Below are positions 30,641-63,614 of a DNA stretch of 64,000 nt, in pieces. A program made the translations under genes and the position numbers. The stretch lies in the NCBI RefSeq assembly GCF_003989795.1, contig NZ_RZHG01000022.1, positions 62,001 through 126,000 on the forward strand, given 5' to 3'. Each line of letters opens with the position of its first letter. The stretch's first letter is position 1. The notes under the pieces are model-generated. The model searched no databases, had not been told where the DNA came from, and saw only the letters and a program-made list of their open reading frames with translations. The stretch is from Vreelandella andesensis. GTDB taxonomy: Bacteria; Pseudomonadota; Gammaproteobacteria; Pseudomonadales; Halomonadaceae.

Positions 30641-32050
30641 ATGGTACGACTCGATAAGAAAGCGACTAGGCTGTATGTCCTAGACACGAATGTCCTTATC
30701 CATGACCCCGCCGCGCTCTACCATTTTGATGAGCACGACGTGGTTATACCCATGACAGTCCTTGAGGAGCTAGACAAGCACAAAAACGGCATTCGTGAGA
30801 TTGCCCGCACGGCGAGGCAAGTTAGCCGCACACTTTCCGACTTAACCAACCAAGTCACCTTCGACGAGATCCAGAAAGGCATTCCTATTCCCCGCATCAG
30901 TGGTGAATCTGGCCGCCTCCACTTTTTGTGCTACAACGACCTTAAGCCCTTCGATTCCCTTGATGATAGCCCCGATAATCGTATTTTGGCGGAAACCTGT
31001 CGGCTACGCGATGAGCGCCCAGACGCTTCTGTCATCCTGATTACCAAAGACATCAACCTGCGGGTGAAAGCGGCCGCACTTAAAGTGCCGGTAGAAGATT
31101 ATCTGAACGACCGCGCCTTCTCTGACAACGATGCAATGATTGAAGGCGCACAGGTTTACGCCGCAGCGGGGCAGGATGGTGCATCACTGTGGGAAGCGCT
31201 TAATGTCGAGGTTACCGTTGAACGTATTGACCACCATACTTTTTATCAGCTAAGTGGCAACATGCCTCGCCACTGGCATGTTGGTATGCTGGTATCCGAT
31301 AGCGAAAATGGCGCTGAGTTTGAAGCTATTGTGCGCGAGCTTTCACCGTCTTCTGCCCGACTGCAGTTACTCACCAACTACCGTCACCATGCTGGCGTAT
31401 GGGGCGTTCACGCCCATGACAGTCGCCAAAACTTCACACTCAACCTATTGATGGATCCCGATATTGATCTGGTGACTATTGCGGGGAATGCAGGCACAGG
31501 CAAAACCTTCATGACGCTCGCGGCAGCGTTTCAGCAAACACTGGACGCCAAGCTTTTTGAACGCATTGTGTTTACCCGCGCACCTATTCCCATGGGCGAA
31601 GATATCGGTTTTCTACCAGGCACCGAAGAGGAGAAAATGTCGCCCTGGATGGGAGCCTTCCACGACAATATGGATAACCTGCTGCGTAACGAAGAGGGAG
31701 AATCAAGCTGGGATAACGGCGCCACGCGTCAGCTGATTGGCTCGCGTGTGCAAATCCGCTCGCCGAGTTTTATGCGCGGGCGCACGCTGAACGATACGTT
31801 TCTAATTATTGACGAGGCACAAAATTTCACGCCTAAACAACTCAAGTCGTTGGTGACCCGAGCAGGTCGAAATACCAAGATTGTTTGTTTGGGTAACGTT
31901 GGTCAAATAGACACTCCCTACTTAACCGCCAACACCTGTGGCATGGCTGCCGTTGTAGAACGGTTTAGGGACTGGCCCCATGCTGGGCATATCACGCTGA
32001 AAAGCGTTGAGCGCTCACGCTTAGCGCTGGCTGCCGAAGAACTGCTGTAA
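30641..32050 (+). CDS. PhoH-family ATPase with N-terminal PIN domain
   Basis: A PIN ribonuclease domain (about 9-150; LYVLDTNVLIHDPAALYHF, VTKDINLRVKAAALKVPVEDY) is fused to a PhoH ATPase domain (about 235-465). Walker A is GNAGTGKTF at 282-290 and Walker B is TFLIIDEAQNF. This PhoH2-type layout is linked to ATP-driven RNA unwinding and cleavage in other bacteria. It has 469 residues and is full length. AAAGGAG lies eleven bases from the ATG. It is a solo gene. The 198-bp leader contains no clear promoter I would defend. Confidence 0.91.
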   Translation: MVRLDKKATRLYVLDTNVLIHDPAALYHFDEHDVVIPMTVLEELDKHKNGIREIARTARQVSRTLSDLTNQVTFDEIQKGIPIPRISGESGRLHFLCYNDLKPFDSLDDSPDNRILAETCRLRDERPDASVILITKDINLRVKAAALKVPVEDYLNDRAFSDNDAMIEGAQVYAAAGQDGASLWEALNVEVTVERIDHHTFYQLSGNMPRHWHVGMLVSDSENGAEFEAIVRELSPSSARLQLLTNYRHHAGVWGVHAHDSRQNFTLNLLMDPDIDLVTIAGNAGTGKTFMTLAAAFQQTLDAKLFERIVFTRAPIPMGEDIGFLPGTEEEKMSPWMGAFHDNMDNLLRNEEGESSWDNGATRQLIGSRVQIRSPSFMRGRTLNDTFLIIDEAQNFTPKQLKSLVTRAGRNTKIVCLGNVGQIDTPYLTANTCGMAAVVERFRDWPHAGHITLKSVERSRLALAAEELL

Positions 32051-32177: not shown

Positions 32178-33236
32178 TTACGTAGGCGGTTGTTTACCCT
32201 CTGATTGACGTTGGGCATCAAGATGATAAGTATCAAGGTGATAGGTATCAAGGTTCTCGCTATTCCAAGGGTTCTCAACACCAATTGTATCGGCGGCAAA
32301 TGCCCCGCGTTCGCCAAGAGGGCGCGCCGCGCCAACCGTTGTATCGTTACAGGTTTGGCGCTCCATTTCACAGTTAAGCTCCGCGCCAAATAGCACCACA
32401 AACGCTGATAGCCAAAACCATAACATTAGTGCCACAACAGCTCCAAGAGAGCCATACAACTCACTAAAGGTAGAAAAATAGCGTACGTAAAGCGACAAGC
32501 CGCCAGACCCTAGCAACCACATCACGGTAGCAAAAAGCGTACCGTAACTTAACCAGCGCCATTGGGCAGAACGTCGGTAGGGAGCGTAACGATATAGCAA
32601 AGCAATAAGCGCGCTCATCAGCACCAACAGTGCCGGCCAGCGCAGCCATTTCAAAACACTATCTACCGGTGGCTCAATTGTCAGCGTATCAACTAATACC
32701 GGGACTATGGCAATAAAACCCAGTGACACAAGCGTCATTGTGATCATACCAAAGGTCAACGACACCAACACCACTCCCCGCAACAATAGCGAACGCTTTT
32801 CATGTTCGCCGTACACGACGTTTAAGCCAACAACCAGCACGGAAACACTTTTCGACGCAACAAACATCGCAATCAACAGTCCTGCTAGCGCCGTCATCAC
32901 ATTGCCAGCTTCCGTGCTTTCCACGACTTTTTGAGCCTGTTGATCAATTAAATTCGCTGCATCCGGTGGCATAAAGCGGCTAATTTCATAAAGCTGTCGA
33001 CCTGCCTCAACAGGGTCAAACAGCAACCCCCAAAGGGAAATAACGGCTGCTATCGTAGGAAAAAGCGCCAGCAACGCATAAAAAGCGACGCCCGCCGCAA
33101 ACATGGTAATGCGATCACGTCGGGCTGCATGCAATACACGCCAACTAATATCGTGCCACCCTTCACGAGGGATATCGTCGGGCACTATCGCTTTCCTGCC
33201 ACGCCGGTGAGTATCCACTCTCTCTTTGTGGCTCAT
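32178..33236 (-). CDS. YihY/BrkB-family inner-membrane protein
   Basis: This integral membrane protein of the YihY (UPF0761, 'virulence factor BrkB') family has six or so membrane segments (about 45-290). The characteristic blocks are AAGVAFYALLALFPTIAAVISLWGLLFDP, SAQWRWLSYGTLFATVMWLLGSGGLSLYVRYF and YGSLGAVVALMLWFWLSAFVVLFGAELN. A basic N terminus and a soluble C-terminal tail follow; the tail contains a double DTYHL from a 15-bp repeat at 32225-32254. The start at 33236 has GGAGG seven bases upstream and overlaps the preceding stop as ATGA. Its place as the last gene of a proton-channel operon suggests a linked role. The molecular function of the family is unsettled. Confidence 0.88.
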   Translation of the reverse strand: MSHKERVDTHRRGRKAIVPDDIPREGWHDISWRVLHAARRDRITMFAAGVAFYALLALFPTIAAVISLWGLLFDPVEAGRQLYEISRFMPPDAANLIDQQAQKVVESTEAGNVMTALAGLLIAMFVASKSVSVLVVGLNVVYGEHEKRSLLLRGVVLVSLTFGMITMTLVSLGFIAIVPVLVDTLTIEPPVDSVLKWLRWPALLVLMSALIALLYRYAPYRRSAQWRWLSYGTLFATVMWLLGSGGLSLYVRYFSTFSELYGSLGAVVALMLWFWLSAFVVLFGAELNCEMERQTCNDTTVGAARPLGERGAFAADTIGVENPWNSENLDTYHLDTYHLDAQRQSEGKQPPT

Positions 33237-35017
33237 CGCAGTCCCTCCCACATTAGCAAAAGCGCCAGTATGACAGCGAACGCCATCATCAAACCGCTAC
33301 CATGATGACGCATCCATGCTTCTGCGAATAACCCTCTTTTCAAGTGCCCCATTAACGTTCGCTCAAGGGCTAGCGAGAACGTAACGCTCGCCATTTTCAC
33401 TTTTTCACAGGCACGGGCGATAACCCTTAAGGCGCGCAGCCCTCTCAAAGTAAGATCACTATACAGCCACCATAAATCGCCCGCAGGCAGCGTTTGAACA
33501 ACAGCGTGACGACGCCAGCCAGCGCCGATCAGAACCCCAACGACAACGACCATGACCCCAACGGGGAAAGGCCAGCTCAGACTTAACCATTCAGAGGCTG
33601 GCGGCACCTCGACGCTGCCCACGGGTAGCGGAAGCCATATTGGCGTCACCAGAGCAGCAATTAAGGCAGTCAGCCAGGCGCCCCACTGAAAAGCATCACT
33701 GCCCCCTGAATGCCGTTGTTGCCACTGACGCCACACGCAAACGCTGACCAACGCAGAGGTGCCAATAGCCGCCCAGGTCAATAGCATAATTAACCCTTCG
33801 TGATGCATTTCATAAAGCGCACTCTTAACGCTCCATTTACTCAGCATCCCCGCCGCCAGCGCACCCGTCAGCGACACGCCTGGTAAAGCAATTAGCGCAA
33901 ACAGCAACGGCTGGGGCCAACGAGGCATATGCTCGCTAATGCTGGTGCCCAGAAATAGCGCCCCTTTTGCCAGCGCATGGTGAGCGGCAAATAACACCAC
34001 ACCGGGCAATATCAGCGACCACACGTCTGGGGCGGCTAGTCCCATGGCCACCATCGCCGTGAGCATCCCCATTTGACTGATACTGGAGTACGCCAGTACC
34101 GCTTTTGGGTGACGCTGCCAAACGCCATACAGCGCTGCACCAAACGCGGCTGCTAACCCGGCCACTAACATAATGTTGCCCAGTTGAATGAGCGCGGGCG
34201 ACAACCCATCAACGCCCAGCGGTAATACGTTGATCCAACCTAACAGCCCTGCTTTAATCATCGCGCCACTCAGCACGGCACTGGCGGGCGCAGGCGCCAC
34301 CGGATGAGCCAACGGCAACCACACATGAAGACCAATAACGCCTGCTTTCACCCCAAAACCAAGCCATAACAAAAGCGCCATCAGGGCACCGTCATCAGCA
34401 GCAACAATGCCTTCTCGCACCCCCTTGAGCGTCAGGGTCTCTGCGCTGCCGGCTACCCAAAGAAGGCCACCAAGAATAAGCCCCTCACCAATAACAGCCA
34501 GGGCTAAGTATGCCCTTGCGCCTAGCCGCGCCTCGTTACTACCGCTATGCAAAACCAGGGCATAGGCAGCAAACGTCATCAATGCAAAGCCCAGATAAAA
34601 ACTCGCGATATCTTGCGCAATAATCAGCAACACATTGCCTAACAGCGTGAGTGGCCACAGTAGCGCTAACCGCTGACATCGACGCTGGGCACCCTGATCG
34701 CCCGCCTGGGCTTTTCGTTGCTCTGCGGAAAAATAACCCCGAGCATGAGCTGCCGCCAAACTCCATAACAGAGCAGTAAAGGCGAGCCACGGCCGGCTCA
34801 AGGTATTTAACTCCCAATAACCGCCTAGCATCCAGGCATCGATTGTCCATTGGACCTCGCCACTAAAGGCCAGCAGTAACGCGGGCCAAGAAGCACTAAT
34901 CCAGAGCAACGGAAAATAATCACGGCTAGCAGCAGGCGTTCGATATGCCTGCCACACCGTGCTGCCCGCAACACACAGGGGCCAAAGCAACGCCGCCAGC
35001 AAAAGTAGCGTGATCAT
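33233..35017 (-). CDS. NuoL/HyfB-like proton-conducting membrane subunit
   Basis: This 594-residue polytopic protein is built like the ND2/4/5 antiporter-type subunits of complex I, Mrp and group-4 hydrogenases. Conserved helices include GFGVKAGVIGLHVWLPLAHPVAPAPASAVLSGAMIKAG (TM7-TM8 with the lysines) and GMLSKWSVKSAL (TM12 lysine). The HVWLPLAHP block is of the NuoL/HyfB type. At TM5 the expected Glu in the L-E-L position reads FAL (A145 by my count), so the key acidic residue seems absent. The fourth gene of the five-gene operon, it overlaps both neighbours by ATGA. It has about 15 segments, including a C-terminal extension. Confidence 0.85.
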   Translation of the reverse strand: MITLLLLAALLWPLCVAGSTVWQAYRTPAASRDYFPLLWISASWPALLLAFSGEVQWTIDAWMLGGYWELNTLSRPWLAFTALLWSLAAAHARGYFSAEQRKAQAGDQGAQRRCQRLALLWPLTLLGNVLLIIAQDIASFYLGFALMTFAAYALVLHSGSNEARLGARAYLALAVIGEGLILGGLLWVAGSAETLTLKGVREGIVAADDGALMALLLWLGFGVKAGVIGLHVWLPLAHPVAPAPASAVLSGAMIKAGLLGWINVLPLGVDGLSPALIQLGNIMLVAGLAAAFGAALYGVWQRHPKAVLAYSSISQMGMLTAMVAMGLAAPDVWSLILPGVVLFAAHHALAKGALFLGTSISEHMPRWPQPLLFALIALPGVSLTGALAAGMLSKWSVKSALYEMHHEGLIMLLTWAAIGTSALVSVCVWRQWQQRHSGGSDAFQWGAWLTALIAALVTPIWLPLPVGSVEVPPASEWLSLSWPFPVGVMVVVVGVLIGAGWRRHAVVQTLPAGDLWWLYSDLTLRGLRALRVIARACEKVKMASVTFSLALERTLMGHLKRGLFAEAWMRHHGSGLMMAFAVILALLLMWEGLR

Positions 35018-36519
35018 GGCAGATACTCCCCTACCGCCACACGGGTCGCCCAGTCCAACGGACTAAATGGCAACCCTGCCAGCAGCCCTGCCCCAAGACT
35101 CACCACCGCTGTGAACACCGCAGGCCATAATAACCAGCCGTGGGTTTCCATGCGCCCAAGACACTGTTCATTAGGCCACTCGCCTTTCCCATGGGCCGGG
35201 CCCTCGCGGAACCAAAGGCGATGCAAGACGGGCAGAAAGTAAATCGCATTCAAGGTACTGCTTGCCACTAATACGGCAACCACCCAATACCTCTGTGCCT
35301 GAATAGCACCAACACCCAAGTACCACTTAGTGATAAAGCCAGCGATAGGCGGCAGACCAATCATCCCAAGTGCCCCCACGGTGAATGCCAAGCTGGTAAG
35401 TGGCATACGTTTCCCGGCACCGTCCATTTCATCAATACGATGGATACCTAGCTCTTCAGCGTAGTTACCTGCACAAAAAAACAGCGTGACCTTCATCAAG
35501 CCTTGATGCAGTAGATGCGCAAGCGCACCAATCGTACCGAAGGGGCCAAACAGACTAACGCCCAGTATGACGTAGGAAACTTGGCTAATAGTGGAAAACG
35601 CCAATCGGGGCTTTAGTTCTTGTTGGGCAATCGCGCGCAGCGAGCCGTAAATAATCGTGATTGACGCCGCAATAGCTAGCACGGTGGTGACACCAAGCGC
35701 TACGCTAAGCTCAATGCCATAAAGATCATAAATCACCCGAAGGATGCCAAAGGCACCTGCTTTTACAACCGCAACCGCATGCAACAGCGCACTAACCGGC
35801 GCAGGCGCTACCATTGCTCTTGGCAGCCAACCGTGCAACGGCACCATGGCAGCTTTAACCGCTAAACCACCCACCAACAAGGCAAATATCAGTGTCAACA
35901 AGCCACGATGATCATTGAGATAAGGCGATAACCCCCGCTCAGAAGCGAACGAGTGGTCGCCCGTTAAGCTGTAGAGCAATACCACACCGAGTAGTAGCAC
36001 CACCCCACCTGTTAAGGTATAACGCAGATAGACTCGTCCTGCTGCTAGCGCCTTGGCGGTGCCTGAGTGGACAACCAGCGGGTAGGTAGAAAGGGTCAAC
36101 ATTTCGTAGAAAATCAGAAACGTAAATAGATTACCGGCTAACGCGATACCCAAGGTACTCGCGACACACAGACTGAAAAAGCCAAAAAAGCGTTTGCGGT
36201 TCGCCGCCCCTTCTAAATAGCCGATCGCGTAGATGGTCGTACACAGCCACAGTAATGAAGAGAGCCCCGCAAACATCACCCCTAACGCATCAGCTCTTAA
36301 TACAAACTCAACGCCGCCCACTATCTGGAAACTAAAGGTGTCTTCAAAGCCCTGAGAGACCCGACCAACCATCAAGGTGACCAGGATAATTTTACTAACC
36401 GCGGCAAGCAGGTTAATGCTGGTACGTAGCCGCCGCGCGTCTTCAGGTAGAAGAAAAATAACCCCCGCGGCAACAAGGGAAACTGCTAACGTTGTTAGCG
36501 GTAGCCAAGCTGCATTCAT
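35014..36519 (-). CDS. MnhD-like monovalent cation/proton antiporter subunit
   Basis: This 501-residue ND2/4/5-type subunit is closest in feel to Mrp/Mnh subunit D. It has 13-14 membrane segments. TM5 carries E139 (LIFYEMLTLSTY), TM7 K222 (LAVKAAMVPLHGWLPRAM), TM8 a lysine in VAVVKAGAFG, and TM12 a lysine in GLPPIAGFITKWYLG. All the proton-path residues are therefore present. The frame opens at 36594, but the ATG at 36519 has GGGAGG nearby and overlaps the previous stop as ATGA; I chose it. The third gene of the operon. Confidence 0.87.
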   Translation of the reverse strand: MNAAWLPLTTLAVSLVAAGVIFLLPEDARRLRTSINLLAAVSKIILVTLMVGRVSQGFEDTFSFQIVGGVEFVLRADALGVMFAGLSSLLWLCTTIYAIGYLEGAANRKRFFGFFSLCVASTLGIALAGNLFTFLIFYEMLTLSTYPLVVHSGTAKALAAGRVYLRYTLTGGVVLLLGVVLLYSLTGDHSFASERGLSPYLNDHRGLLTLIFALLVGGLAVKAAMVPLHGWLPRAMVAPAPVSALLHAVAVVKAGAFGILRVIYDLYGIELSVALGVTTVLAIAASITIIYGSLRAIAQQELKPRLAFSTISQVSYVILGVSLFGPFGTIGALAHLLHQGLMKVTLFFCAGNYAEELGIHRIDEMDGAGKRMPLTSLAFTVGALGMIGLPPIAGFITKWYLGVGAIQAQRYWVVAVLVASSTLNAIYFLPVLHRLWFREGPAHGKGEWPNEQCLGRMETHGWLLWPAVFTAVVSLGAGLLAGLPFSPLDWATRVAVGEYLP

Positions 36520-38006
36520 GCGCCACCTCCCTGCAATAGCGCCAGTGGTAGGTGAGCCAATAAGCCGAGTGCAAAGGCCGCTAACGCCAAACAAAGCGCA
36601 ATAAGATCCATGCCGGGCGCTAATGGTTGGTACTGATGTCGAGGCGCCGTTTCATCGAAGGAGTAGCGAAAAACACGAAACACATAGGCAGCCGTCAGCA
36701 GCGTACCTATTAATAGCGCAGCAACAGCTACCCATTGCTGCGTCATCACCATCGCCTGGAGTAGCAGCCACTTTGCTGTGAACCCTGCACTAGGCGGTAG
36801 CCCCATCAGCGTAACGGATGCAATACCAAAAATAAGCAGTGATAGCGGTAACCGGCGGCTAGTCCCCGCCAGCCCCTTAATTGAGCTTTCACCAGTGGCA
36901 ATAATTAGATTGCCAACGGCCATAAACATAGCCGCTTTTGCCAACGAGTGGCCCATTAACTGTAGCCAAAAACCTTCCCAAGCCAGCGCGCCGGGGAGCG
37001 GCGAAACAGCAGACCCCAGCAACAGGGGAAAAGCCACCATTAAGTAACCCAGCTGACCTACCGTAGAAGACGCCACCAAGGTTTTAAGCGATTCGGCACG
37101 CCACGCAATTAGCCCGCCCCAAACGATCGCTAGCATGCCCAGCCATGCCACCAAGCGCGGAGCAAACAACGCATCGGGAAGCAAAATGCCCCACAGCATG
37201 ATCAGCATAAACAGCGAGGCTTTAATCACTAACGCCGCATGTAGTGCACTCACCGGTGTCCAGGCATTTTCATGCACAGGCGTTAGCCACCCGTGAAGCG
37301 GAAAAAGTGCCGCTTTCAGCGCCAATCCCGCACCTATCAGGGCAGCCGCCACCCAGGACACCGGGCTAGGCTCAACAACCTCAACCAAAGATTTGAGGTC
37401 AAGTTCCCCCCAATACCCAAGCAGCAAAGCCACACCAAGCAGGTAGGCAAGAGAGCCAACCAACGCTAACAGCAAATACCGCATACCCGCTTTTAGCGCA
37501 TCTGGCTTACCTGAAAGCAGTAACATACCCACGGCAGCTAGCCCCATTAGCTCTAACGCGGCGTAAAGGGTTAATAGATCCACCGCTAGCCAAATAAGCG
37601 ACAGCGCACTAATCAGCACACCCATCAACGGCCACAGCCATCGCGCGTGTTTACCGGGGTTGGTCAGTTGCAAATGTCCCGGCGTGTACATGGCAGCCGC
37701 CGTCCCCACCCACTGAGTGATCATTAACATTAAACCGCTCAGGCCGTTAAAGCGCAGCGACAGCTCAACGCCTGCAATATCCCATTGCCAACGCAGTAAC
37801 CCCACTTGCAGGTAGTCGACAATCAATAGTGCTCCAGCCAGCAAAATTGGCAGGCACGCAAGCGCAACGGGGAATAGGCGGCGCGGGGTAAAAAATGCGC
37901 CTAACAGGCCTATAAATATCGGTAACACTAAGATTGCCAGCAGCGCCCAGTGGCTATACCACTGCGGTTCAAACGTGCTTTCGTACAAGCCAAAGCGCCA
38001 TATCAT
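36516..38006 (-). CDS. NuoM/MnhD-like proton-conducting membrane subunit
   Basis: This is another ND2/4/5 paralog of 496 residues. TM5 carries E152 (AALELMGLAAVG). TM7 carries K231 (LALKAALFPLHGWLTPVHENAWTPVSALHAALVIKAS), and TM12 has GLPPSAGFTAKWLLLQ. The residues needed for proton movement are kept. It is distinct in sequence from the next two genes, so the operon holds three separate antiporter-type modules, as in complex I, but no quinone or NADH module. Overlaps its neighbours by ATGA on both sides. Confidence 0.87.
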   Translation of the reverse strand: MIWRFGLYESTFEPQWYSHWALLAILVLPIFIGLLGAFFTPRRLFPVALACLPILLAGALLIVDYLQVGLLRWQWDIAGVELSLRFNGLSGLMLMITQWVGTAAAMYTPGHLQLTNPGKHARWLWPLMGVLISALSLIWLAVDLLTLYAALELMGLAAVGMLLLSGKPDALKAGMRYLLLALVGSLAYLLGVALLLGYWGELDLKSLVEVVEPSPVSWVAAALIGAGLALKAALFPLHGWLTPVHENAWTPVSALHAALVIKASLFMLIMLWGILLPDALFAPRLVAWLGMLAIVWGGLIAWRAESLKTLVASSTVGQLGYLMVAFPLLLGSAVSPLPGALAWEGFWLQLMGHSLAKAAMFMAVGNLIIATGESSIKGLAGTSRRLPLSLLIFGIASVTLMGLPPSAGFTAKWLLLQAMVMTQQWVAVAALLIGTLLTAAYVFRVFRYSFDETAPRHQYQPLAPGMDLIALCLALAAFALGLLAHLPLALLQGGGA

Positions 38007-38683
38007 TGCGCATGCCCCGTAGCGTCACTGTCACTTTCTAGTGCGAGCAGACCTTCTAACGAAACCAGTTGCCGAATGAGCAGCACGCCTAACAAAGTAC
38101 CCAGCCAAGCAATGGTCAACCCCACGCTGATCAATGCCTGTGATCCAGGCATGGTGCCCGCCATTCCCGCTAGCAAAAGAAACACACCAGACCCCAAAAC
38201 ATTGAAGGCCATTAAGCGGCGCAGCATATGTCTGTGTAGCGCAAATGCCCCCATTGCTGTGGCTACAATAACAACGGCAGCGATAATTAGCGGATGCTCT
38301 GTCGGTGAGTAAGCCATGTCAGGCAATAAAAACCAAATGGCGCCACCTATCATCACACTCCAGGCCAGCGCCAACACTGCGCGTACCACTTTATGAGACC
38401 AACGATGGAGGGAGCGGTCATAATGGGGCACCTTTTCAGCAGTGGCAGGGAATGCATTCAGTGCATAAAAAAAGCTGCCCCCCGTCAGCGTCAACCCGAG
38501 TACAAGCTCTGCCAACGCCAACCCAGGTGCATCAAACAGCCACCACGAAAGACTCATCAATAACGCAAATAGCAAAAACAGACTACTCGCCCGTTTTAAG
38601 TGGCGATCAAACAAACAGGCAAGCGCTGCGGCTACTAGACAGAACGCTACACCGACTTCTACATAGTCAATTGACGCTATCAT
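38003..38683 (-). CDS. Fused MbhD/DUF4040-like and MnhC/NuoK-like membrane subunit
   Basis: This 226-residue protein has six or seven membrane segments. The N-terminal half (about 1-80) carries FDAPGLALAELVLGLTLTGGSFFYAL, matching the DUF4040/MbhD motif APDVALAE...G. The C-terminal half (about 120-215) resembles MnhC/NuoK: HRHMLRRLMAFNVLGSGVFLLLAG and SQALISVGLTIAWLGTLLGVLLIRQL. In Mrp complexes these are separate or part of MnhA/B and MnhC; here they are one polypeptide. It is the first gene of the operon, immediately upstream of the three antiporter subunits (ATGA overlap). The alignment is by eye. Confidence 0.78.
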   Translation of the reverse strand: MIASIDYVEVGVAFCLVAAALACLFDRHLKRASSLFLLFALLMSLSWWLFDAPGLALAELVLGLTLTGGSFFYALNAFPATAEKVPHYDRSLHRWSHKVVRAVLALAWSVMIGGAIWFLLPDMAYSPTEHPLIIAAVVIVATAMGAFALHRHMLRRLMAFNVLGSGVFLLLAGMAGTMPGSQALISVGLTIAWLGTLLGVLLIRQLVSLEGLLALESDSDATGHAQ

Positions 38684-54896: not shown

Positions 54897-57800
54897 ATGA
54901 CTCTTTTTTTTCATACATCTTTATTTCGTCGTGCGCACCAACACAATACATCTATGGCATTGTGGAACTCTTCCGCTCCAGTACGTGAAGAATTGTTTAG
55001 TGCAGAACGGCTTGAACAACACGCGGCCAGTTTAGCACTGGCACAAGTTGTTACTGAAAGCCCACCTAAAGTGGTGTCGTTAACACGACGGCTAAACGAT
55101 AATGCCAACGTGTTACTTGCCGCTTACCGCGCTTGCGCGGTAACGCTGGAAGAAGGACGAGATATCGTTCCTGCTGCCGCATGGTTACTTGATAATTATC
55201 ACCTTATCGAGGCACAAATCCGGGAAATTCGTGGCGACCTTCCACCCGGTTATTACCGACAACTACCAAAACTTGCAGAAGGCCCCTTTGCGGGCTATCC
55301 ACGCGTTTTTGGTATTGCATGGGCATTTATTGCACATACCGATAGCAATATAGAACTCACTAACTTACGTTCATTTATTAACGCTTATCAGCGCGTTCAA
55401 CCACTAACGATTGGTGAGCTATGGGCGATCGCGATAACACTCCGTATTGTATTAGTTGAAAATCTACGCCGACTTGCCGACCAAATCATTACTGAACAAA
55501 CTGCGCGGGATGCAGCGGATACACTAGCGGCTAAATGGATCGCTACTGAAAACGACTCACAAAAAAGAAACGATTCACCTGATAGATATTCACCTGATAG
55601 TTATTCATCAGCGAATCATTCATCTAAAAATTATTCGAATGATCATGAGTTTCCATCGTTTACGTTCCAAAAAGCACCGCTTTCAGCGCCTTTCACCGCT
55701 CAATTAGCCAAGCGTTTACGCGGTATTAATCCCAATACCAGCCCTTTAGCTTGCTGGCTTTTTGAGCAACTTAACCGACAGGGCGAGTCTATCGACGACG
55801 TTGTGCAAAATGCCCAGCAGCACCAGGGTGCGGCGAACGTTACCGTGCGAAATATCATTACCAGCATGCGTTTCATCTCCAGTACCGATTGGGCTGAACT
55901 CCTCGAAAGCATCAGTTTGGTCGACGCAAAATTACGCGAACATAGTCGTTTTGCGCAGTATGATTTTTCAACGCGCAACCATTACCGGAGCGCGGTGGAG
56001 GAGCTTTCCCGGGGCTCAGGTTATTCAGAGCTGGAGGTTGTTGATCAGGCGATAACGCTGTCAAGAGAAGCATTACCATTGACCGATGATGCCCACGAAG
56101 CAGCACGCGTGAGCGATCCTGGCTATTTTTTAGTAGCGGCGGGTAAAAATACGTTAGAAAAACGCCTTAACTTTCGTCCACCATTGAAACGGCGGTTTCG
56201 CCAAATACTGTTGAAAAATGGCATCCACGGCTACGCTATGATGCTCACAGCGGCGTCAGTCATCTTAATGATAGTGGGCTGGCTGCTATTATCAGTGTCT
56301 TCAGGCGAGACGTCGTCACTTTGGTTATTGTTACTAGCAGGCCTAGGCATACTGCCCACGATTGAGGTCGCTACGTCTATCGTCAATCGCTTCGTGATTC
56401 ATAATATTGGCGCTCAGCCACTGTCTAGCCTGGACCTCTCTAAAGGTATTCCGCCCGCTCTACGCACGCTGGTCGCAATGCCAACGCTATTGACGAGTGA
56501 AGCCGACTTAAAAGAGCAGCTTGATCGGCTTGAAGTGCACCACTTGGGTAGCGGTGGCGGTGCCATTAGCTATGCACTGTTAACCGATGGTATTGATGCA
56601 CAGCAGGCAGAAACAGCCACCGATGAGGCGCTGCTAAGTACTGTTGAAAAGCGCATTGAGGAATTGAATAAACGCTACTGTACTTCTAGCCATGAGAAAC
56701 GTTTTTTCTTACTCCATCGCAACCGCGTCTACAACAAAAGTGAGCAATGTTGGATGGGGTGGGAGCGTAAGCGAGGCAAGCTTCATGAGCTCAACAGGCT
56801 GTTACGTGGCGCAACGGATACAACCTTCAGAGACCCGCCTTCGTTACCAAGAAATGTGCAATATATTATCACCTTAGATGCCGACACACGTCTGCCAAGA
56901 GGTGCTGCCAACAAGCTGGTTGGCAAAATAGCCCATCCGTTAAATCACCCTCGCTTTGATACGCAGCAACGACGCGTAGTGGAAGGCTATGCCATTTTAC
57001 AGCCCCGCGTCACTCAATCGATGCCTATGGGTGAGAGAGGTTCGTCTTATCAGCGGCTGTGCTCTTCTCCAGGAGGCATTGATCCCTATGCCGCCGCCAT
57101 GTCAGACCTTTATCAAGACTTAGTGGGTGATGGCTCGTTCGCAGGTAAAGGTATTTACAATATTGATGCCTTTGAAGCATCGCTAGCAGGCCGAATCTCT
57201 GAAAACAGCCTGCTAAGTCACGATATGTTCGAGGGCATTTTTGCCCGTGCAGGTCTGGCATCCGACATTGAAGTCATTGAGGACTTTCCAGACCGCTATG
57301 ATGTAGCAGCCAAACGCCAACACCGCTGGGTGCGGGGCGATTGGCAGTTACTCCCGTGGTTATTTACGGTGTCGGTGCCACTCACAGGGCGCTTAAAAAT
57401 ACTTGGAAATCTACGCCGATCGTTGCTACCACCACTACTGTTAGCTTGCCTTGCGCTGAGTTGGCAGCTCCCTCTGATGATGGCTGTCATCAGCAGTCTA
57501 ATGGTTATCATGGTCATCAGCATACCGGTCTTACTGTCTTTAATAACGTCATTTTCTCCGCTGCGGCCAGGCGTCAACCTTCGTTACCATTTCCAGCAAT
57601 GGTGGGATGAACTAACGCTGGGATTAAAACAAATTTTGCTGCAACTGATGTTTCTTCCTGATCAAGCATGGCGAATGCTAGATGCCATCGTTAGTACCCT
57701 GATACGCATTTTAATTACTCGCCGCCATTTACTAGAGTGGACCTCTGCAGCCCAGACGATGAAATGCCCACACCTGACCATTGGGGGGTTTTATCAACAC

Positions 57801-60800
57801 ATGGCGCCCGGCACGTTACTAGGCGTAGTCGTTGCCTTTAATGCATTGTGGTTTAACAGTGGTGTTTGGATGCTGGTCGTACCGGTGGCGCTGCTTTGGG
57901 TAGCAGCCCCGGCAATAGCGACGTGGATGAGCAGTACAGTGAATGTTGCGAACCAGCCGCTTTTAGCAGAAGACGTAGCCCGTGAGCTGAGACTTATTGC
58001 CCGAAAAACCTGGCGCTACTTTGAAACCTATGTAAATGCATCGACCAACCTTCTCCCGCCCGATAATTTTCAGGAAGAGCCTCAGCCGGTGATCGCCCAG
58101 CGAACCTCCCCAACCAACATGGGGCTCTACTTACTATCGATACTGGCGGCGCGTGATTTCGGCTGGATCGGCAATCAAAATGCGCTAAGCCGAATAGAAA
58201 CCACCCTTGCGATCATGCATACCCTGCCTCGTTATCGTGGTCACTTCTTTAATTGGTACGCAGTCGATGATCTCCGTCCGCTAGACCCTAGGTATGTGTC
58301 TACTGTCGATAGCGGCAACCTTGCAGGGCATCTCATTACTCTCGCCAACGCCCTGGAAACCTGGCAGGAATCGACGTTTTCACCCGATCCGCGCCAAGGA
58401 ATAGCAGATACATTGACCTCGGTATTCGAGGCACTTAAGCGTGTGCCTCAATCAACAACTCAGTCCACTGCCCCACTGATGGCACAGCTTCAAAAAGTCG
58501 CTGCGCTAGTAAGTGAAAACAAAACGGCGCCATTAGACTTAGAGGCCCTCACTACAGAAACAAAACAAACACTTGGCATGGCTTGCGACCTGTTTAATGA
58601 ACAACGCGCCCCCGGTAGTGCGGATAATAGAGAAGACTATAGCGACGATGTCATTTTTTGGGTAACCGCACTACACAAAACGGCTGCTCAGCACAGCGAT
58701 GACCATCGCAAAGAGACAATCGCCATCAGCACGCATTCCGAGCGGCTCCAGCAACTGGCCAGTAAAGCCCGACGTCTAGCTCTCAGCATGGATTTTGCGT
58801 TTTTACTCAACCCAGAGCGGCAGCTACTGTCGATAGGCTTCTCCTTGGATGACGCCAGCCTGGATACCAGTTGCTATGACCTGCTGGCCTCAGAAGCACG
58901 ATTGGCAAGCCTGTTTGCTATTGCCAAAGGCGATGTGCCCACTCGCCACTGGTTCCGTCTTGGTCGCGCGGCAACCCCCTTAAAAGAGGGCGCGGCGATG
59001 ATTTCCTGGTCAGGCTCCATGTTCGAATATCTAATGCCGTCGCTGATTATGCGCGCCCCCGCTGGCAGCTTATTAGAGCAAACTAACCGTCTGGTGGTTA
59101 AACGTCAGGAAACATATGCCGCTCAGTTTTCAGCGCCATGGGGTATTTCCGAGTCGGGGTATAACGCGCGAGACATAGAACATACTTATCAATATTCCAA
59201 TTTTGGAGTGCCTGGATTAGGGCTTAAGCGTGGCCTGTCGGCTGATTTAGTGATCGCCCCGTACGCAACGGGCTTGGCGACAATGATCGACCCAGAGGGG
59301 GCCTTTAAGAACTATCGCCGCCTTGCAGAAATGGGCGCACTAGGACGCTATGGGTACTACGAAGCGCTAGACCTGACCCGTTCACGGCTCCCCAAAGGCG
59401 CCGAGTTAATAATTGTGCGCAGCTACATGGCGCACCATCAAGGCATGACCATCGTCGCCATCGCCAATACGCTTCACCGTGGGCAGATGCGGGCACGCTT
59501 CCACCGCGAACCGATGATTCAGGCGAGCGAACTGTTACTTCAAGAACGCATACCGCGGGACGTTGCCATCGCTTATCCCCGTGCGGAAGAAGTGAAATCG
59601 ACAGCTAGCCAAACGATCAACGAGGCACAAACCGTGCGCCATGTATCAACCACCGTCAACGGGCCTCCGGTCACTCACCTGCTCTCAAACGGCAATTATT
59701 CTGTCATGTTGACCGCAACAGGCGGCGGCTATAGCCGATGGCACAACATTGCCATCACTCGCTGGCAGCCAGATACGACTCGCGACCACTGGGGAAGTTT
59801 TATTTTTCTCCGTGATACCCGACGCCCAAGCGTTTGGAGCGCAACAGGACAATCGCTGGAATCACCTAACGGTGCTTATGATGACGACAATCACGTGTTA
59901 TTTGCTGAGGATTATGCCCGCTATGTCCATCGGCATGAGGCTATTTGCAGCCACGTGGACATCCTCGTTTCTGGGGAGGATGACAGCGAAGTACGCCTGC
60001 TGACACTGACCAACAGTGGACGCCAAGTCTGCGATATCGACGTTACTTCCTATGCAGAATTAGTACTAACCACGCCCAGTACCGACAACGCTCATCCAAG
60101 CTTTGCCAAAATGTTCGTAGTAACGGAGTTCCTTCCTGAATTCAATGCCCTCGTGGCCACACGCCGGCGGCGGGACCCGAGCGAAGCGCACGTGTGGGTC
60201 GCTCACTTCGCCGTGGTAGAAGGCGAAACCGTTGGCGAGTTCCAATACGAAACCGATCGCGAGCAATTTATTGGCCGGGGCCACCGCCTTACCACCGCAA
60301 GGGCACTTGCTGAGGGCCAGCAATTATCAGGCACCGTCGGAAGTGTCATCGACCCTATTTTTGCATCACGCTATTGCCTGCGGATCACTCCAGGTAAAGC
60401 TGCCCGTATTGCTTACTGGACTGTCGTTGCCACTTCACGACAGGCACTGATGGACTTAATTGATAAACATCATGATGTTAGCGCCTTTGAACGCGCTAAG
60501 ATGCTCGCGTGGACCCAAGCACAGGTGCAACTGCGCCACTTAAGCACTCAGCCAGAAGAAGCCGCTGAATTCCAGCGGCTTGCTGCCCCACTGCTCTATC
60601 CGGACGCACGCTTTAGGGCGCCTAAAAGAGCGATTCAGAGCGGTGCCGCTCAACAGTCTTTGCTGTGGCAACACGGGATATCCGGCGATTTACCCATCGT
60701 TTTGTTACGTATCGAATCCACTGATGACTTGCCGCAATTGCATCAATTACTTCGCGCGCATGAATACTGGCGCTTGAAACGGCTCGAAGTCGATATAGTC

Positions 60801-63614
60801 ATCATCAATGAGCGCGCTTACTCGTATATTCAAGATTTACAACAAGCCATTGAAGCCACAATACTCAGTAGCCAGGCAAGACCACGTCTTCACAGTGGCT
60901 ATGCACAGGGAACGGTATATGCCTTACGTGCCGACTTAGTGAGCGCTCTATCACGCGCTCAGCTTCAATCGATTGCTCGCGTGGTGCTGATAGCGCATCG
61001 AGGATCAGTTGCCGATCAGCTGTCTATTATGTTGTCTGGCCAACAAGTCAAGAAACCTCTTACCATCACCAAACGTGCTTTCCCAAAACAGCTGATTGAT
61101 AAGATGGAAACTCATCGTCCGCTTAATCGGCCTCCACTTGAATTTTTTAACGGCTGGGGCGGGTTTGCAAAGCAAGGACGACAATACGTCGTCATCCTCG
61201 AAGCAGGCAGCTCAACGCCAGCGCCATGGATCAATGTCATCGCGAATCAACAGTTTGGATTTCAAGTATCCGCAGAGGGAGCCGGCTACCTATGGGCAGA
61301 CAACAGCAGAGAAAACCAACTAACACCATGGACTAACGACCCTGTCATTGACCCTAGCGGAGATGCTGTCTACGTCCGGGATGAAGAAACGTTGGCGCTG
61401 TATACGGCGACAGCAAGCCCAATACGTGATTCAGGCCGCTACGTTGCACGTCATGGTTTTGGCTATAGTCAATTTGAACATCAAACTAACGAGCTTAGCT
61501 TAACGCTGTTGCACTTTGTCCCACTGGATGCGCCGCTACGCATCTCTCGACTAAGGCTGGTAAATCATTCAAACCGGACGCGTAAACTTTCCGTAACCGC
61601 TTATGCAGAATGGGTATTGGGCACATCACGCAGCGCATCGGCACCCTTTCTTATTACCTCGCAAGCAACCGATAGCGGTGCATTATTAGTCACAAATCCC
61701 TGGAATGCCGCTTTCCCAGGCCGAGTGGCTTTTCTCGACATTGGCGAGCAACCTGCCCAATGGACAGGCAATCGCAGCGAGTTTATCGGTTATGGAAAAA
61801 GTTTAGCTGAACCTGCCGGGTTACGAAGTAAAACACCACTTTCCGGCGCATTAGGCGCGGGGTTAGACCCATGTACCGCTCTTCAACGCCGCGTGACATT
61901 GGCCCCGGGTGAAACGGTCGACATTATCGTGTTGTTGGGTCAAGGGGGCTCAACCGAAGAAGTTGCGGGTCTAATTGCCCGTTTTCGTAATGCCGATATT
62001 GATGCAGAGCTTGCCAGTATCCACGACTACTGGAATAGCCAGCTGAATGCCATACAGGTCAAAACCCCCGACCGGGCGATGGACATCATGCTAAACGGTT
62101 GGCTGCTTTATCAGACCATCGCCTGCCGTTTAACGGCTCGTTCGGCGTTTTACCAGGCCAGCGGCGCTTATGGCTTCCGTGACCAGTTACAAGATTGTAT
62201 GGCGTTGACATTTAGCAACCCTGCCAAAACACGCCAGCATCTGCTGCGGGCGGCATCACGCCAGTTCCCAGAAGGCGATGTACAACACTGGTGGCTGCCA
62301 CACTCCGGCCAAGGCGTGCGTACGCGTATTTCTGATGATCGAGTTTGGTTGGCTTATGCGTGCGCGCGCTATATCGCCACTTCCCATGACACATCGATAC
62401 TCGATGAGCCCGTCAACTTTCTCGACGGCACACTGTTATCGTCCCGTGAACATGAACACTTCTTCCAGCCAACGACCTCGTTAGAAACTGCTTCACTGTT
62501 TGAACACTGCGCACGCGGACTGGATATTACCCTTTCACAGCTAGGTGAACATGGGTTGCCGCTGATAGGAGGCGGTGACTGGAACGACGGTATGAACCGG
62601 GTGGGGGCAGAGGGCAAGGGAGAAAGTGTGTGGCTAGGCTGGCTGTTAGTTAAAACGCTTGAGCTATTTACGCCACTTGCCGAGCAGCGGGAGGCCAAAT
62701 TACTTCATTTAGACGATTATCATCGCTACGCCGCTCGTTGGCATCAATACACCCTCGCACTCCGCATAGCGCTTGAAAACAGCGCCTGGGATGGCCAGTG
62801 GTATCGCCGAGCCACTTACGACGATGGTACCTGGCTAGGCAGCAAACAAAGCGATGCCTGCCAGATTGATTCGATCGCCCAGTCCTGGGCGGTGCTTTCC
62901 GGCGCCGGTGCCCCTCAGCGGGCTAAGCTTGCTATGTATTCCTTGGAGCGCGAACTTATTCTTCACGAACAACAGTTAGCGCTGCTTTTTTGGCCTCCCT
63001 TTGACCAGCCCCAGCAAGACCCTGGCTATATAAGCGGCTATCCACCAGGAATGCGCGAAAATGGAGGGCAATATAGTCATGCATCGATGTGGGCAATTTT
63101 GGCGTTTACCCAGCTAGGTGATGGCGACAAGGCGCATCGTCTGTTTACACTGCTTAATCCCATCAACCATGCCACTACAACGGAGAAGGCTGCCCGTTAT
63201 CGCGTTGAGCCTTATGTGGTAGCCGCTGATGTGTATTCTGTTGCGCCCCATACAGGCCGCGGTGGCTGGACATGGTACACCGGCGCTGCGGGTTGGATGT
63301 ATCAAGCAGGTATTGAGGGTATTTTAGGCATTCGCCGTGAAGCTAACTGGCTGGTTATTTCTCCTTGCCTGCCCACTAGCTGGCCCCATTTTACTGCTGA
63401 CATTACCCTTGCCCAATCGCACTATCATATCAGGGTGATCAATGCGCAAGACTCTCCAGCGACGTCAAGCCAAGCCCCTTTAAGCCAACTCCTCTCTGCA
63501 ACACTGGATGGCGTTCACTTGGCAGAAACAGGGGTTGGTATGCCTATTCGCGCGCCGTTGGATAGTCAGCATCATCAACTAGAGATAATTATCCGGCGTT
63601 TTACGCCCGCATAA
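54897..63614 (+). CDS. Cyclic beta-1,2-glucan synthase (NdvB/Cgs type)
   Basis: One 2905-residue inner-membrane enzyme should start, elongate and cyclise beta-1,2-glucan for the periplasm. Order: N-terminal region (SAERLEQHAASLALAQ); an odd S/N/D/Y-rich linker (about 220-262); two membrane helices (about 440-490); GT84 glycosyltransferase domain with D661-x-D663 (TLDADTRLP) and the product-site QHRWVRGDW (808-816); more membrane helices (about 835-885 and 980-1010); two carbohydrate-binding/GH94-type beta domains; and a C-terminal GH94 phosphorylase-like domain with GGGDWNDGMNRVG, whose Asp2564 is the likely acid. Length matches NdvB/Cgs. The ATG at 54897 has AGGA nearby; another in-frame ATG is at 54954. 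Confidence 0.9.
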   Translation: MTLFFHTSLFRRAHQHNTSMALWNSSAPVREELFSAERLEQHAASLALAQVVTESPPKVVSLTRRLNDNANVLLAAYRACAVTLEEGRDIVPAAAWLLDNYHLIEAQIREIRGDLPPGYYRQLPKLAEGPFAGYPRVFGIAWAFIAHTDSNIELTNLRSFINAYQRVQPLTIGELWAIAITLRIVLVENLRRLADQIITEQTARDAADTLAAKWIATENDSQKRNDSPDRYSPDSYSSANHSSKNYSNDHEFPSFTFQKAPLSAPFTAQLAKRLRGINPNTSPLACWLFEQLNRQGESIDDVVQNAQQHQGAANVTVRNIITSMRFISSTDWAELLESISLVDAKLREHSRFAQYDFSTRNHYRSAVEELSRGSGYSELEVVDQAITLSREALPLTDDAHEAARVSDPGYFLVAAGKNTLEKRLNFRPPLKRRFRQILLKNGIHGYAMMLTAASVILMIVGWLLLSVSSGETSSLWLLLLAGLGILPTIEVATSIVNRFVIHNIGAQPLSSLDLSKGIPPALRTLVAMPTLLTSEADLKEQLDRLEVHHLGSGGGAISYALLTDGIDAQQAETATDEALLSTVEKRIEELNKRYCTSSHEKRFFLLHRNRVYNKSEQCWMGWERKRGKLHELNRLLRGATDTTFRDPPSLPRNVQYIITLDADTRLPRGAANKLVGKIAHPLNHPRFDTQQRRVVEGYAILQPRVTQSMPMGERGSSYQRLCSSPGGIDPYAAAMSDLYQDLVGDGSFAGKGIYNIDAFEASLAGRISENSLLSHDMFEGIFARAGLASDIEVIEDFPDRYDVAAKRQHRWVRGDWQLLPWLFTVSVPLTGRLKILGNLRRSLLPPLLLACLALSWQLPLMMAVISSLMVIMVISIPVLLSLITSFSPLRPGVNLRYHFQQWWDELTLGLKQILLQLMFLPDQAWRMLDAIVSTLIRILITRRHLLEWTSAAQTMKCPHLTIGGFYQHMAPGTLLGVVVAFNALWFNSGVWMLVVPVALLWVAAPAIATWMSSTVNVANQPLLAEDVARELRLIARKTWRYFETYVNASTNLLPPDNFQEEPQPVIAQRTSPTNMGLYLLSILAARDFGWIGNQNALSRIETTLAIMHTLPRYRGHFFNWYAVDDLRPLDPRYVSTVDSGNLAGHLITLANALETWQESTFSPDPRQGIADTLTSVFEALKRVPQSTTQSTAPLMAQLQKVAALVSENKTAPLDLEALTTETKQTLGMACDLFNEQRAPGSADNREDYSDDVIFWVTALHKTAAQHSDDHRKETIAISTHSERLQQLASKARRLALSMDFAFLLNPERQLLSIGFSLDDASLDTSCYDLLASEARLASLFAIAKGDVPTRHWFRLGRAATPLKEGAAMISWSGSMFEYLMPSLIMRAPAGSLLEQTNRLVVKRQETYAAQFSAPWGISESGYNARDIEHTYQYSNFGVPGLGLKRGLSADLVIAPYATGLATMIDPEGAFKNYRRLAEMGALGRYGYYEALDLTRSRLPKGAELIIVRSYMAHHQGMTIVAIANTLHRGQMRARFHREPMIQASELLLQERIPRDVAIAYPRAEEVKSTASQTINEAQTVRHVSTTVNGPPVTHLLSNGNYSVMLTATGGGYSRWHNIAITRWQPDTTRDHWGSFIFLRDTRRPSVWSATGQSLESPNGAYDDDNHVLFAEDYARYVHRHEAICSHVDILVSGEDDSEVRLLTLTNSGRQVCDIDVTSYAELVLTTPSTDNAHPSFAKMFVVTEFLPEFNALVATRRRRDPSEAHVWVAHFAVVEGETVGEFQYETDREQFIGRGHRLTTARALAEGQQLSGTVGSVIDPIFASRYCLRITPGKAARIAYWTVVATSRQALMDLIDKHHDVSAFERAKMLAWTQAQVQLRHLSTQPEEAAEFQRLAAPLLYPDARFRAPKRAIQSGAAQQSLLWQHGISGDLPIVLLRIESTDDLPQLHQLLRAHEYWRLKRLEVDIVIINERAYSYIQDLQQAIEATILSSQARPRLHSGYAQGTVYALRADLVSALSRAQLQSIARVVLIAHRGSVADQLSIMLSGQQVKKPLTITKRAFPKQLIDKMETHRPLNRPPLEFFNGWGGFAKQGRQYVVILEAGSSTPAPWINVIANQQFGFQVSAEGAGYLWADNSRENQLTPWTNDPVIDPSGDAVYVRDEETLALYTATASPIRDSGRYVARHGFGYSQFEHQTNELSLTLLHFVPLDAPLRISRLRLVNHSNRTRKLSVTAYAEWVLGTSRSASAPFLITSQATDSGALLVTNPWNAAFPGRVAFLDIGEQPAQWTGNRSEFIGYGKSLAEPAGLRSKTPLSGALGAGLDPCTALQRRVTLAPGETVDIIVLLGQGGSTEEVAGLIARFRNADIDAELASIHDYWNSQLNAIQVKTPDRAMDIMLNGWLLYQTIACRLTARSAFYQASGAYGFRDQLQDCMALTFSNPAKTRQHLLRAASRQFPEGDVQHWWLPHSGQGVRTRISDDRVWLAYACARYIATSHDTSILDEPVNFLDGTLLSSREHEHFFQPTTSLETASLFEHCARGLDITLSQLGEHGLPLIGGGDWNDGMNRVGAEGKGESVWLGWLLVKTLELFTPLAEQREAKLLHLDDYHRYAARWHQYTLALRIALENSAWDGQWYRRATYDDGTWLGSKQSDACQIDSIAQSWAVLSGAGAPQRAKLAMYSLERELILHEQQLALLFWPPFDQPQQDPGYISGYPPGMRENGGQYSHASMWAILAFTQLGDGDKAHRLFTLLNPINHATTTEKAARYRVEPYVVAADVYSVAPHTGRGGWTWYTGAAGWMYQAGIEGILGIRREANWLVISPCLPTSWPHFTADITLAQSHYHIRVINAQDSPATSSQAPLSQLLSATLDGVHLAETGVGMPIRAPLDSQHHQLEIIIRRFTPA

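Follow-up and report, generated by a model that had tools for sequence, protein, structure and literature searches.

Introduction

What remains of an ion-translocating complex when most of the parts thought to handle sodium have gone and the proton-channel parts are kept? The question is raised by a set of co-directional genes in Vreelandella andesensis, a salt-loving member of the Halomonadaceae, at 32178..38683 on the minus strand of a 64,000-nucleotide stretch of its genome (the window; contig NZ_RZHG01000022.1, positions 62,001 to 126,000), and the contig holding it is 130,691 bases long and belongs to a 3.9 Mb assembly of 34 contigs. Four of these genes, encoding a fused MbhD-MnhC subunit (g1) and three antiporter-like subunits (D1, D2 and D3), form a core which an initial annotation of the DNA had taken for a stand-alone, Mrp-like ion-translocating complex, perhaps a known but unnamed variety, with the BrkB protein encoded behind it as a new partner. 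We find that this core is a reduced form of a widespread eight-gene operon, that a still shorter three-gene form exists in the same family, and that BrkB is a neighbour.

A compact core of one fused and three antiporter-like subunits

Five open reading frames lie at the locus in the order g1-D1-D2-D3-BrkB, and the letters ATGA stand at all four junctions as had been claimed: g1/D1 (38003..38006), D1/D2 (36516..36519), D2/D3 (35014..35017) and D3/BrkB (33233..33236), all on the minus strand. The first gene, g1 (38003..38683, minus strand), encodes 226 residues with seven predicted helices. It matches Pfam family MbhD (PF13244, E 5.6e-9, above the cut-off) and, in its second half, Oxidored_q2 (PF00420, E 2.7e-4, below the cut-off); its closest named relatives come from Vreelandella venusta (87%), Halomonas sp. 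LS-001 (88%) and Halomonas qinghailakensis (85%).

The three subunits that follow, also on the minus strand, match PF00361 with E-values of 8e-46, 3.2e-60 and 2.2e-25, respectively. D1 (36516..38006) has 496 residues and carries Glu152 in transmembrane helix (TM) 5, Lys231 in TM7, Lys262 in TM8 and Lys412 in TM12; D2 (35014..36519, start ATG at 36519) has 501 residues with Glu139, Lys222, Lys253 and Lys398 at the same places; and D3 (33233..35017, 594 residues) has Ala145 at the TM5 position, together with Lys224, Lys255 and Lys394. Thus D1 and D2 of the window hold the full Glu/Lys set and D3 lacks the TM5 Glu. Among the best 25 of 74, 75 and 58 NCBIfam matches to D1, D2 and D3, all fall below cut-off; the top name among these is "putative monovalent cation/H+ antiporter subunit D" for D1 and D2, and "hydrogenase 4 subunit B" for D3. 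No redox/quinone gene, hydrogenase catalytic gene or DabA gene was found by Pfam among the 11 genes read between 28602 and 43557, so the claim that no redox partner lies beside the operon holds.

The fused subunit derives from two adjacent genes

The make-up of g1 becomes clear by comparison with the eight-gene operon, whose order is E-F-G-[MbhD-MbhE-MnhB]-C-D1-D2-D3, the bracketed gene being referred to here as parental B. Profile-profile alignment with hhalign (39 g1, 24 parental B and 16 parental C rows, filtered by length) places g1 residues 5-120 on residues 15-128 of parental B with a probability of 98.4, and g1 residues 131-222 on residues 6-101 of the adjacent parental C with a probability of 99.5. 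The protein therefore consists of an MbhD half (residues 1-80, three helices, 38444..38683, minus strand; Pfam MbhD and alignment to PDB 6cfw_D and 6u8y_D), one linker helix (residues 95-122, 38318..38401, minus strand; aligned with the parental B stretch that follows MbhD, and a helix in the model) and an MnhC half (residues 128-215, three helices, 38039..38302, minus strand; hhalign to parental C and fold match to 6z16_C, 6cfw_G and other chains). The linker helix maintains the register of the two halves. A topology of seven helices with an outside N-terminus fits the hydropathy and charge of g1, and the AlphaFold model (predicted local distance difference test score, pLDDT, 78.8; predicted template modelling score, pTM, 0.76) contains seven as well. 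As supportive observations only, model residues 1-126 match the fold of complex I chains, and residues 126-224 match MrpC (6z16_C), MbhG (6cfw_G) and further chains; we take the complex I chains matched by the two halves to be NuoJ/NdhG and NuoK, respectively.

Relative to parental B, g1 has lost MnhB and the acidic motif of MbhE. This (N/D)FRxYDTLLE-like motif, which we equate with MrpA Asp792/Glu796, is of the VDFRxxDTLGE type in the host's own MrpA and PhaA (VDFRGFDTLGE in PhaA). A loose DT(L/F)xE pattern occurs in 24 of 30 parental B proteins versus 0 of 82 g1 rows, five of which have a bare DTL located in loops or the tail. Glu59 of g1 (codon 38507..38509, minus strand) is kept: it aligns with Glu69 of MbhD in 6cfw and is invariant across 28 aligned sequences. 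MbhD Glu69 is in turn given as the homologue of MrpA Glu706 in the relevant passage of PMC7419157. The fusion is most simply accounted for by an in-frame deletion spanning the two adjacent genes. A second MbhD-MnhC fusion, protein P0083, was seen as a lone cluster in the search; it lies on short contigs, and two thirds of its length aligns to g1 with 35% identity.

From eight genes to four to three

When 151 Halomonadaceae genomes sampled from a larger group were surveyed with g1 at E <= 1e-3, 39 gave matches, of which 30 extended over most of the g1 length (L012-L041). In 29 of these 30 genomes g1-D1-D2-D3 stand together, and in the thirtieth the contig ends after g1, so the grouping is no chance effect. 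Among 55 named loci, 53 are fused and two are not (L121, L149).

A second survey of the same 151 genomes, with D2 at E <= 1e-100, was positive in 45, and the loci fall into four forms. Nineteen genomes of the window's genus, the window included, have g1-D1-D2-D3 followed by BrkB (L042-L059 and the window). Eleven genomes of genus g20 (Halomonas) have g1 (L060-L070), and 10 of them continue through D1-D3 to PhoH with no BrkB, the contig of L063 ending directly after g1. Nine genomes of genera g12, g23, g9 and g14 have D1-D2-D3 only (L199, L208-L215), and a six-frame search of these nine found nothing like g1, B or C; even in its longest possible frame, their D1 starts about 84 residues late. 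The remaining six genomes carry the eight-gene operon (L071, L072, L216-L219). Outside the 45, a further Mrp-like locus (L073) comes from a 77% complete genome and is cut within D1, and two loci (L074, L075) hold E-F-G-B-C plus two D genes; the four-gene form is present in the genomes of the latter two (G121, G039) as well, which shows that one genome can harbour both. Frames in two or more pieces were seen for D3 in L051 and L058, for most genes in L163 and for D2 in L219.

In a class-wide sample, a g1 profile search was positive in 34 of 369 genomes, and the two halves are fused only in the window's genome and in G010; of the other 32, 30 gave separate MbhD-half and MnhC-half matches and two (G248, G437) a single match. 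Twenty class-level loci, taken from 18 of these 32 genomes, all carry E, F, G, B, C and D1, with D2 detected at 19 and D3 at 17, and within the family all eight genes are present at the six loci named above. A tree built from 44 D2 rows unites all 25 from reduced operons in a single clade (100/98), which lies beside the eight-gene operons L071 and L072 of this family (100/99). Several terminal branches of the eight-gene form are long, and support is weak for either the four-gene or the three-gene rows as single clades. Together, these comparisons show that one Halomonadaceae clade has lost E, F and G while the adjacent B and C became the single gene g1, and that other genera of the family, which have neither the fused gene nor the start of D1, hold a still shorter form. 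This origin, the reduction of a widespread operon, lay beyond what the initial annotation could see.

The reduced forms appear to share a chromosomal site. In the window's genus the core lies between Est, a carboxylesterase/phospholipase-family gene (PF02230; 38730..39428, minus strand) that forms the upstream border and stands outside the unit, and a convergent PIN-PhoH gene (30641..32050, plus strand) that forms the downstream border. Seven of the nine three-gene stretches contain both borders and two contain Est only, with opposite-strand genes before PhoH in L209, L210 and L212; in genus g20, variable other genes lie between Est and g1.

Constraint on the core

In-frame overlaps are kept at 28 of 29 g1-D1 junctions, 38 of 38 D1-D2 junctions and 37 of 38 D2-D3 junctions (103/105 overall; 55/57 in the 19 BrkB-linked loci). 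Ratios of nonsynonymous to synonymous substitution (dN/dS) for the four core genes range from 0.03 to 0.39 in 13 pairs, one of which is saturated for g1 and D1, and since frames were read from the previous stop the values may be inflated. D2 has the lowest ratio of the four in all six window-genus pairs, and so is the most conserved core protein of that genus, though not in every other pair. These comparisons show the core genes to be under purifying selection.

The residues of the proton path were scored in relatives of 250-800 residues (L126, L152 and L160 set aside). In D1, the TM5 Glu, TM7 Lys and TM12 Lys occur in 82 of 82 scored relatives, and in D2 they occur throughout 72, save for one gapped row at TM12; at TM8, two D1 rows of the eight-gene form and a gapped D2 row depart from Lys. 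In the three-gene form, D1 has the TM7, TM8 and TM12 Lys in 9/9 genomes and the TM5 Glu in 8/9, with Asp in the remaining one, and the scored positions of D2 and D3 are as in the window except for Thr in place of Ala at TM5 in two D3 proteins. The D3 TM5 position is Ala, Ser, Thr, Val or Ile (one gap) in every form, the eight-gene form included, which makes the lack of Glu an old trait. Because its TM8 and TM12 Lys vary in the eight-gene rows (11/16 and 12/16, respectively), D3 is the loosest of the subunits. Beyond the TM5 position, D3 has an acidic residue in reduced and eight-gene forms alike; it is Glu178 in the window's protein and Asp in four of the eight-gene rows.

BrkB is a neighbour of the core

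The fifth gene encodes a 352-residue BrkB/YihY-family protein (PF03631, E 3.6e-57; 32178..33236, minus strand, start ATG at 33236). Its position gives some reason to see in it a true fifth subunit: it lies directly downstream of the core in 19 of 19 window-genus carriers, and of the 53 fused named loci, 33 have BrkB next, these being all the loci of that type that reach the point (17 others run from D3 to PhoH without BrkB, and three contigs end too early). It overlaps D3 by ATGA in the window, and D3 ends in the letters ATGA at 16 of the 19 loci where BrkB follows. At seven of these 16, however, the letters are out of BrkB's frame, and the in-frame overlap is found in 9/19. The arrangement of g1 with D1-D3 is thus general among carriers; the junction with BrkB is not.

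The genomes from which the core is missing speak against a partnership. Six of 25 window-genus genomes have no D2 at the survey threshold. In four of them (L194-L197) Est, BrkB and PhoH follow one another directly without g1-D3; in the fifth (G129, L198) BrkB is followed by other genes before PhoH, and the sixth (G138) has a distant paralog only. In two of the four, BrkB is still 87-89% identical to that of the window, which suggests that the core may have been recently lost or exchanged there. Conversely, none of the 17 other-type named loci extending as far as PhoH has BrkB, yet a close relative (51-59% identity) occurs at another locus in all 10 genomes searched of the 11 of genus g20, an ortholog call made by identity rather than by a tree, with surroundings viewed in seven genomes. 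BrkB does not travel with the complex, nor is it lost or moved along with it. Because Est-BrkB-PhoH persists without the core and g20 has BrkB elsewhere, we regard BrkB, one of three genes of its family in the window's genome, as a co-directional neighbour and not as a conserved part of the complex; that it is a true fifth subunit is very unlikely. The suggested linkage thus reaches well beyond one genome, across the window's genus, yet is positional, and the idea of BrkB as a new partner is not upheld.

Other Mrp systems of the host

PF00361 has eight matches in the host genome: two on contig C4, which holds a complete Mrp operon, two on C25, which holds a second complete Mrp operon with A and B fused, one on C21, and D1-D3. 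As all eight are accounted for, the genome has no further NuoL/M/N set. The C21 match is a 531-residue protein followed by an 802-residue gene, a pair that we take to resemble DabBA. MnhB, E, F and G are absent from the locus and occur in two copies each in the whole genome, all within the C4 and C25 operons; a search of the host's contigs found no orphan copies. Neither the neighbouring genes nor orphan genes in the rest of the host genome therefore make up for the Mrp subunits missing from the locus.

Elsewhere in the window, a single reading frame of 2905 residues (54897-63614, plus strand) combines GH94 and glucoamylase-like domains and resembles a cyclic beta-glucan synthase.

Discussion

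Relation to known systems

The nearest kin of the core in the D2 tree is the eight-gene gammaproteobacterial operon, which has the same three D genes in the same order together with MbhD and MnhC parts, and from which the window differs by the absence of E, F, G, MnhB and the MbhE motif and by the fusion of B and C; we would assign that operon to the irregular "group 3" described by Ito et al. 2017 (PMC5703873). With Mrp (CPA3; Mnh/Pha) systems of groups 1 and 2 the locus shares antiporter-like subunits with Glu/Lys residues, an MrpC part (the C-terminal half of g1) and the MrpA-C/MbhD Glu706 homologue. It lacks MrpB, E, F and G and the MbhE acidic motif and has three D-type subunits instead of MrpA-N and MrpD; because MrpB, E, F and G were searched for and not found with the operon, it is not an Mrp complex in the strict sense. 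A group-1 Mrp system has been deleted in H. hydrothermalis Y2, as described in passages of PMC6815383.

The membrane arm of complex I (NuoJ, K, L, M, N) offers an equal count of parts, namely three antiporter-like, one NuoJ-like and one NuoK-like, but the window locus has no redox genes among those read, and the solved structures closest to its proteins in sequence are those of MBH, MBS and Mrp subunits. Group 4 hydrogenases and formate hydrogenlyase differ by their hydrogenase catalytic genes, absent among the 11 genes at the locus. DabAB likewise has an ND5-like subunit without a redox partner, but no DabA-type partner was found by Pfam at the window locus. Nt-Nha of Natranaerobius thermophilus, as characterized in the account given in PMC2764116, is also an antiporter-like protein outside an Mrp operon, but a single one, in place of three paralogs and g1. 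In Nitrospira, according to a passage of PMC7784846, group 3 Mrp genes are accompanied by additional NuoL/M-like genes, so arrays with several D-type subunits are already known; no account of the reduced g1-D1-D2-D3 operon was found in the literature searched.

Proposed function and its rivals

With moderate confidence, we propose that the core encodes a reduced, Mrp/Mbh-derived (CPA3-type) cation/proton exchanger in which transport is carried out by the antiporter-like subunits. The gene content of the locus supports a stand-alone, Mrp-like and presumably ion-translocating complex without a redox partner, as initially suggested, which would hold three antiporter-like subunits in a row. D1 and D2, with their complete Glu/Lys sets, would carry protons, D3 may serve as a variant third module, and g1 would cap the array at the Glu59 coupling site. 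The complex would still exchange protons for a monovalent cation, Na+ or K+, the antiporter-like subunits transporting by themselves and the separate MnhB/E/F/G module being dispensed with; in a halophile it could help to keep pH and ion levels steady, alongside the two complete Mrp systems. There is precedent for such economy: Nt-Nha acts outside an Mrp operon (per the corresponding section of PMC2764116), and single Ehrlichia subunits complement Escherichia coli at pH 5.5 in an experiment reported in PMC8395091.

Several points weigh against this exchanger. Most parts of the published Na+ path are missing from the window operon: one Mrp structure, as presented in the relevant part of PMC7419157, assigns Na+ to MrpB, C, E, F, G and MrpA-C. 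The polar positions D and H of MbhG are G and F in g1, residues that parental C already has. The TM5 Glu is missing from D3, as it is in the eight-gene forms. Since the three-gene form has no g1, whatever function the clade shares needs neither g1 nor Glu59. Other results in PMC8395091 have the Ehrlichia D subunits raising the salt sensitivity of E. coli at pH 7 and 8, and, according to a passage on earlier studies in the review PMC5703873, MrpA or MrpD by itself gave no active Mrp antiporter, Nt-Nha and Methanosarcina MrpA being the exceptions.

The same facts lend themselves to a proton-only device: without a cation module, the complex would be a gated proton entry path, or proton valve, that acidifies the cytoplasm at alkaline pH with no cation moved in return. 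This reading would explain why the proton-path residues are kept although MnhB, E, F, G and the MbhE motif, the greater part of the proposed Na+ path, are gone, and why the Glu59 site, too, is absent in the three-gene form. We nevertheless consider it unlikely, as an ungated proton leak would be costly and antiporter-like proteins outside Mrp operons exchange Na+ and K+ in other organisms, according to the portions of PMC2764116 and PMC8395091 that deal with them; on our analysis, cation/proton exchange by the D subunits would rank first and the proton-only device second. Still less probable is a complex that does not stand alone and instead takes its B, E, F and G subunits from the host's two complete Mrp systems or relies on a partner encoded at another locus. 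Two full sets of these subunits are available on C4 and C25, but g1 is without the MbhE/MnhB part that adjoins F and G in the published structure, the host, the only genome searched for orphans, has none, and B, E, F and G are absent from the locus across the clade.

Slightly more doubtful again is a DabAB-like role, in which an ND5-like subunit supplies energy to a partner taking up or converting some other substrate; the host does have a pair on C21 resembling such a system, but no conserved soluble partner accompanies the core, the gap between Est and g1 being variable in Halomonas and BrkB independent. That the core is a functionless, decaying remnant of the eight-gene operon is hardly credible, despite the stepwise gene loss, the D3 in two frames in L051 and L058 and the absence of the core from six same-genus genomes: dN/dS is low, the proton-path residues are intact and the overlaps are conserved in nearly all carriers.

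Significance

The route of Na+ through Mrp is disputed, and the pertinent parts of PMC7419157 and PMC9568556 variously place it in MrpB, C, E, F, G and MrpA-C, in MrpD, or at Glu687 (Glu706) with an exit beside MrpB. The Halomonadaceae series amounts to a natural deletion experiment on this debated path: the eight-gene form is complete, the four-gene form keeps the Glu59 site and the MnhC part, and the three-gene form consists of D subunits only. More tentatively than the exchanger itself, we suggest that the passage from eight to four to three genes at one chromosomal site may reflect proton-channel subunits that still make up a separate transporter without cation subunits, either as a proton-only device or by transport through the D subunits. 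Comparing cation dependence across the forms would test the Na+ models directly and would bear on coupling in the membrane arm of complex I. In its salt-loving host, the reduced operon has kept its proton-channel parts and lost most of the parts thought to handle sodium.

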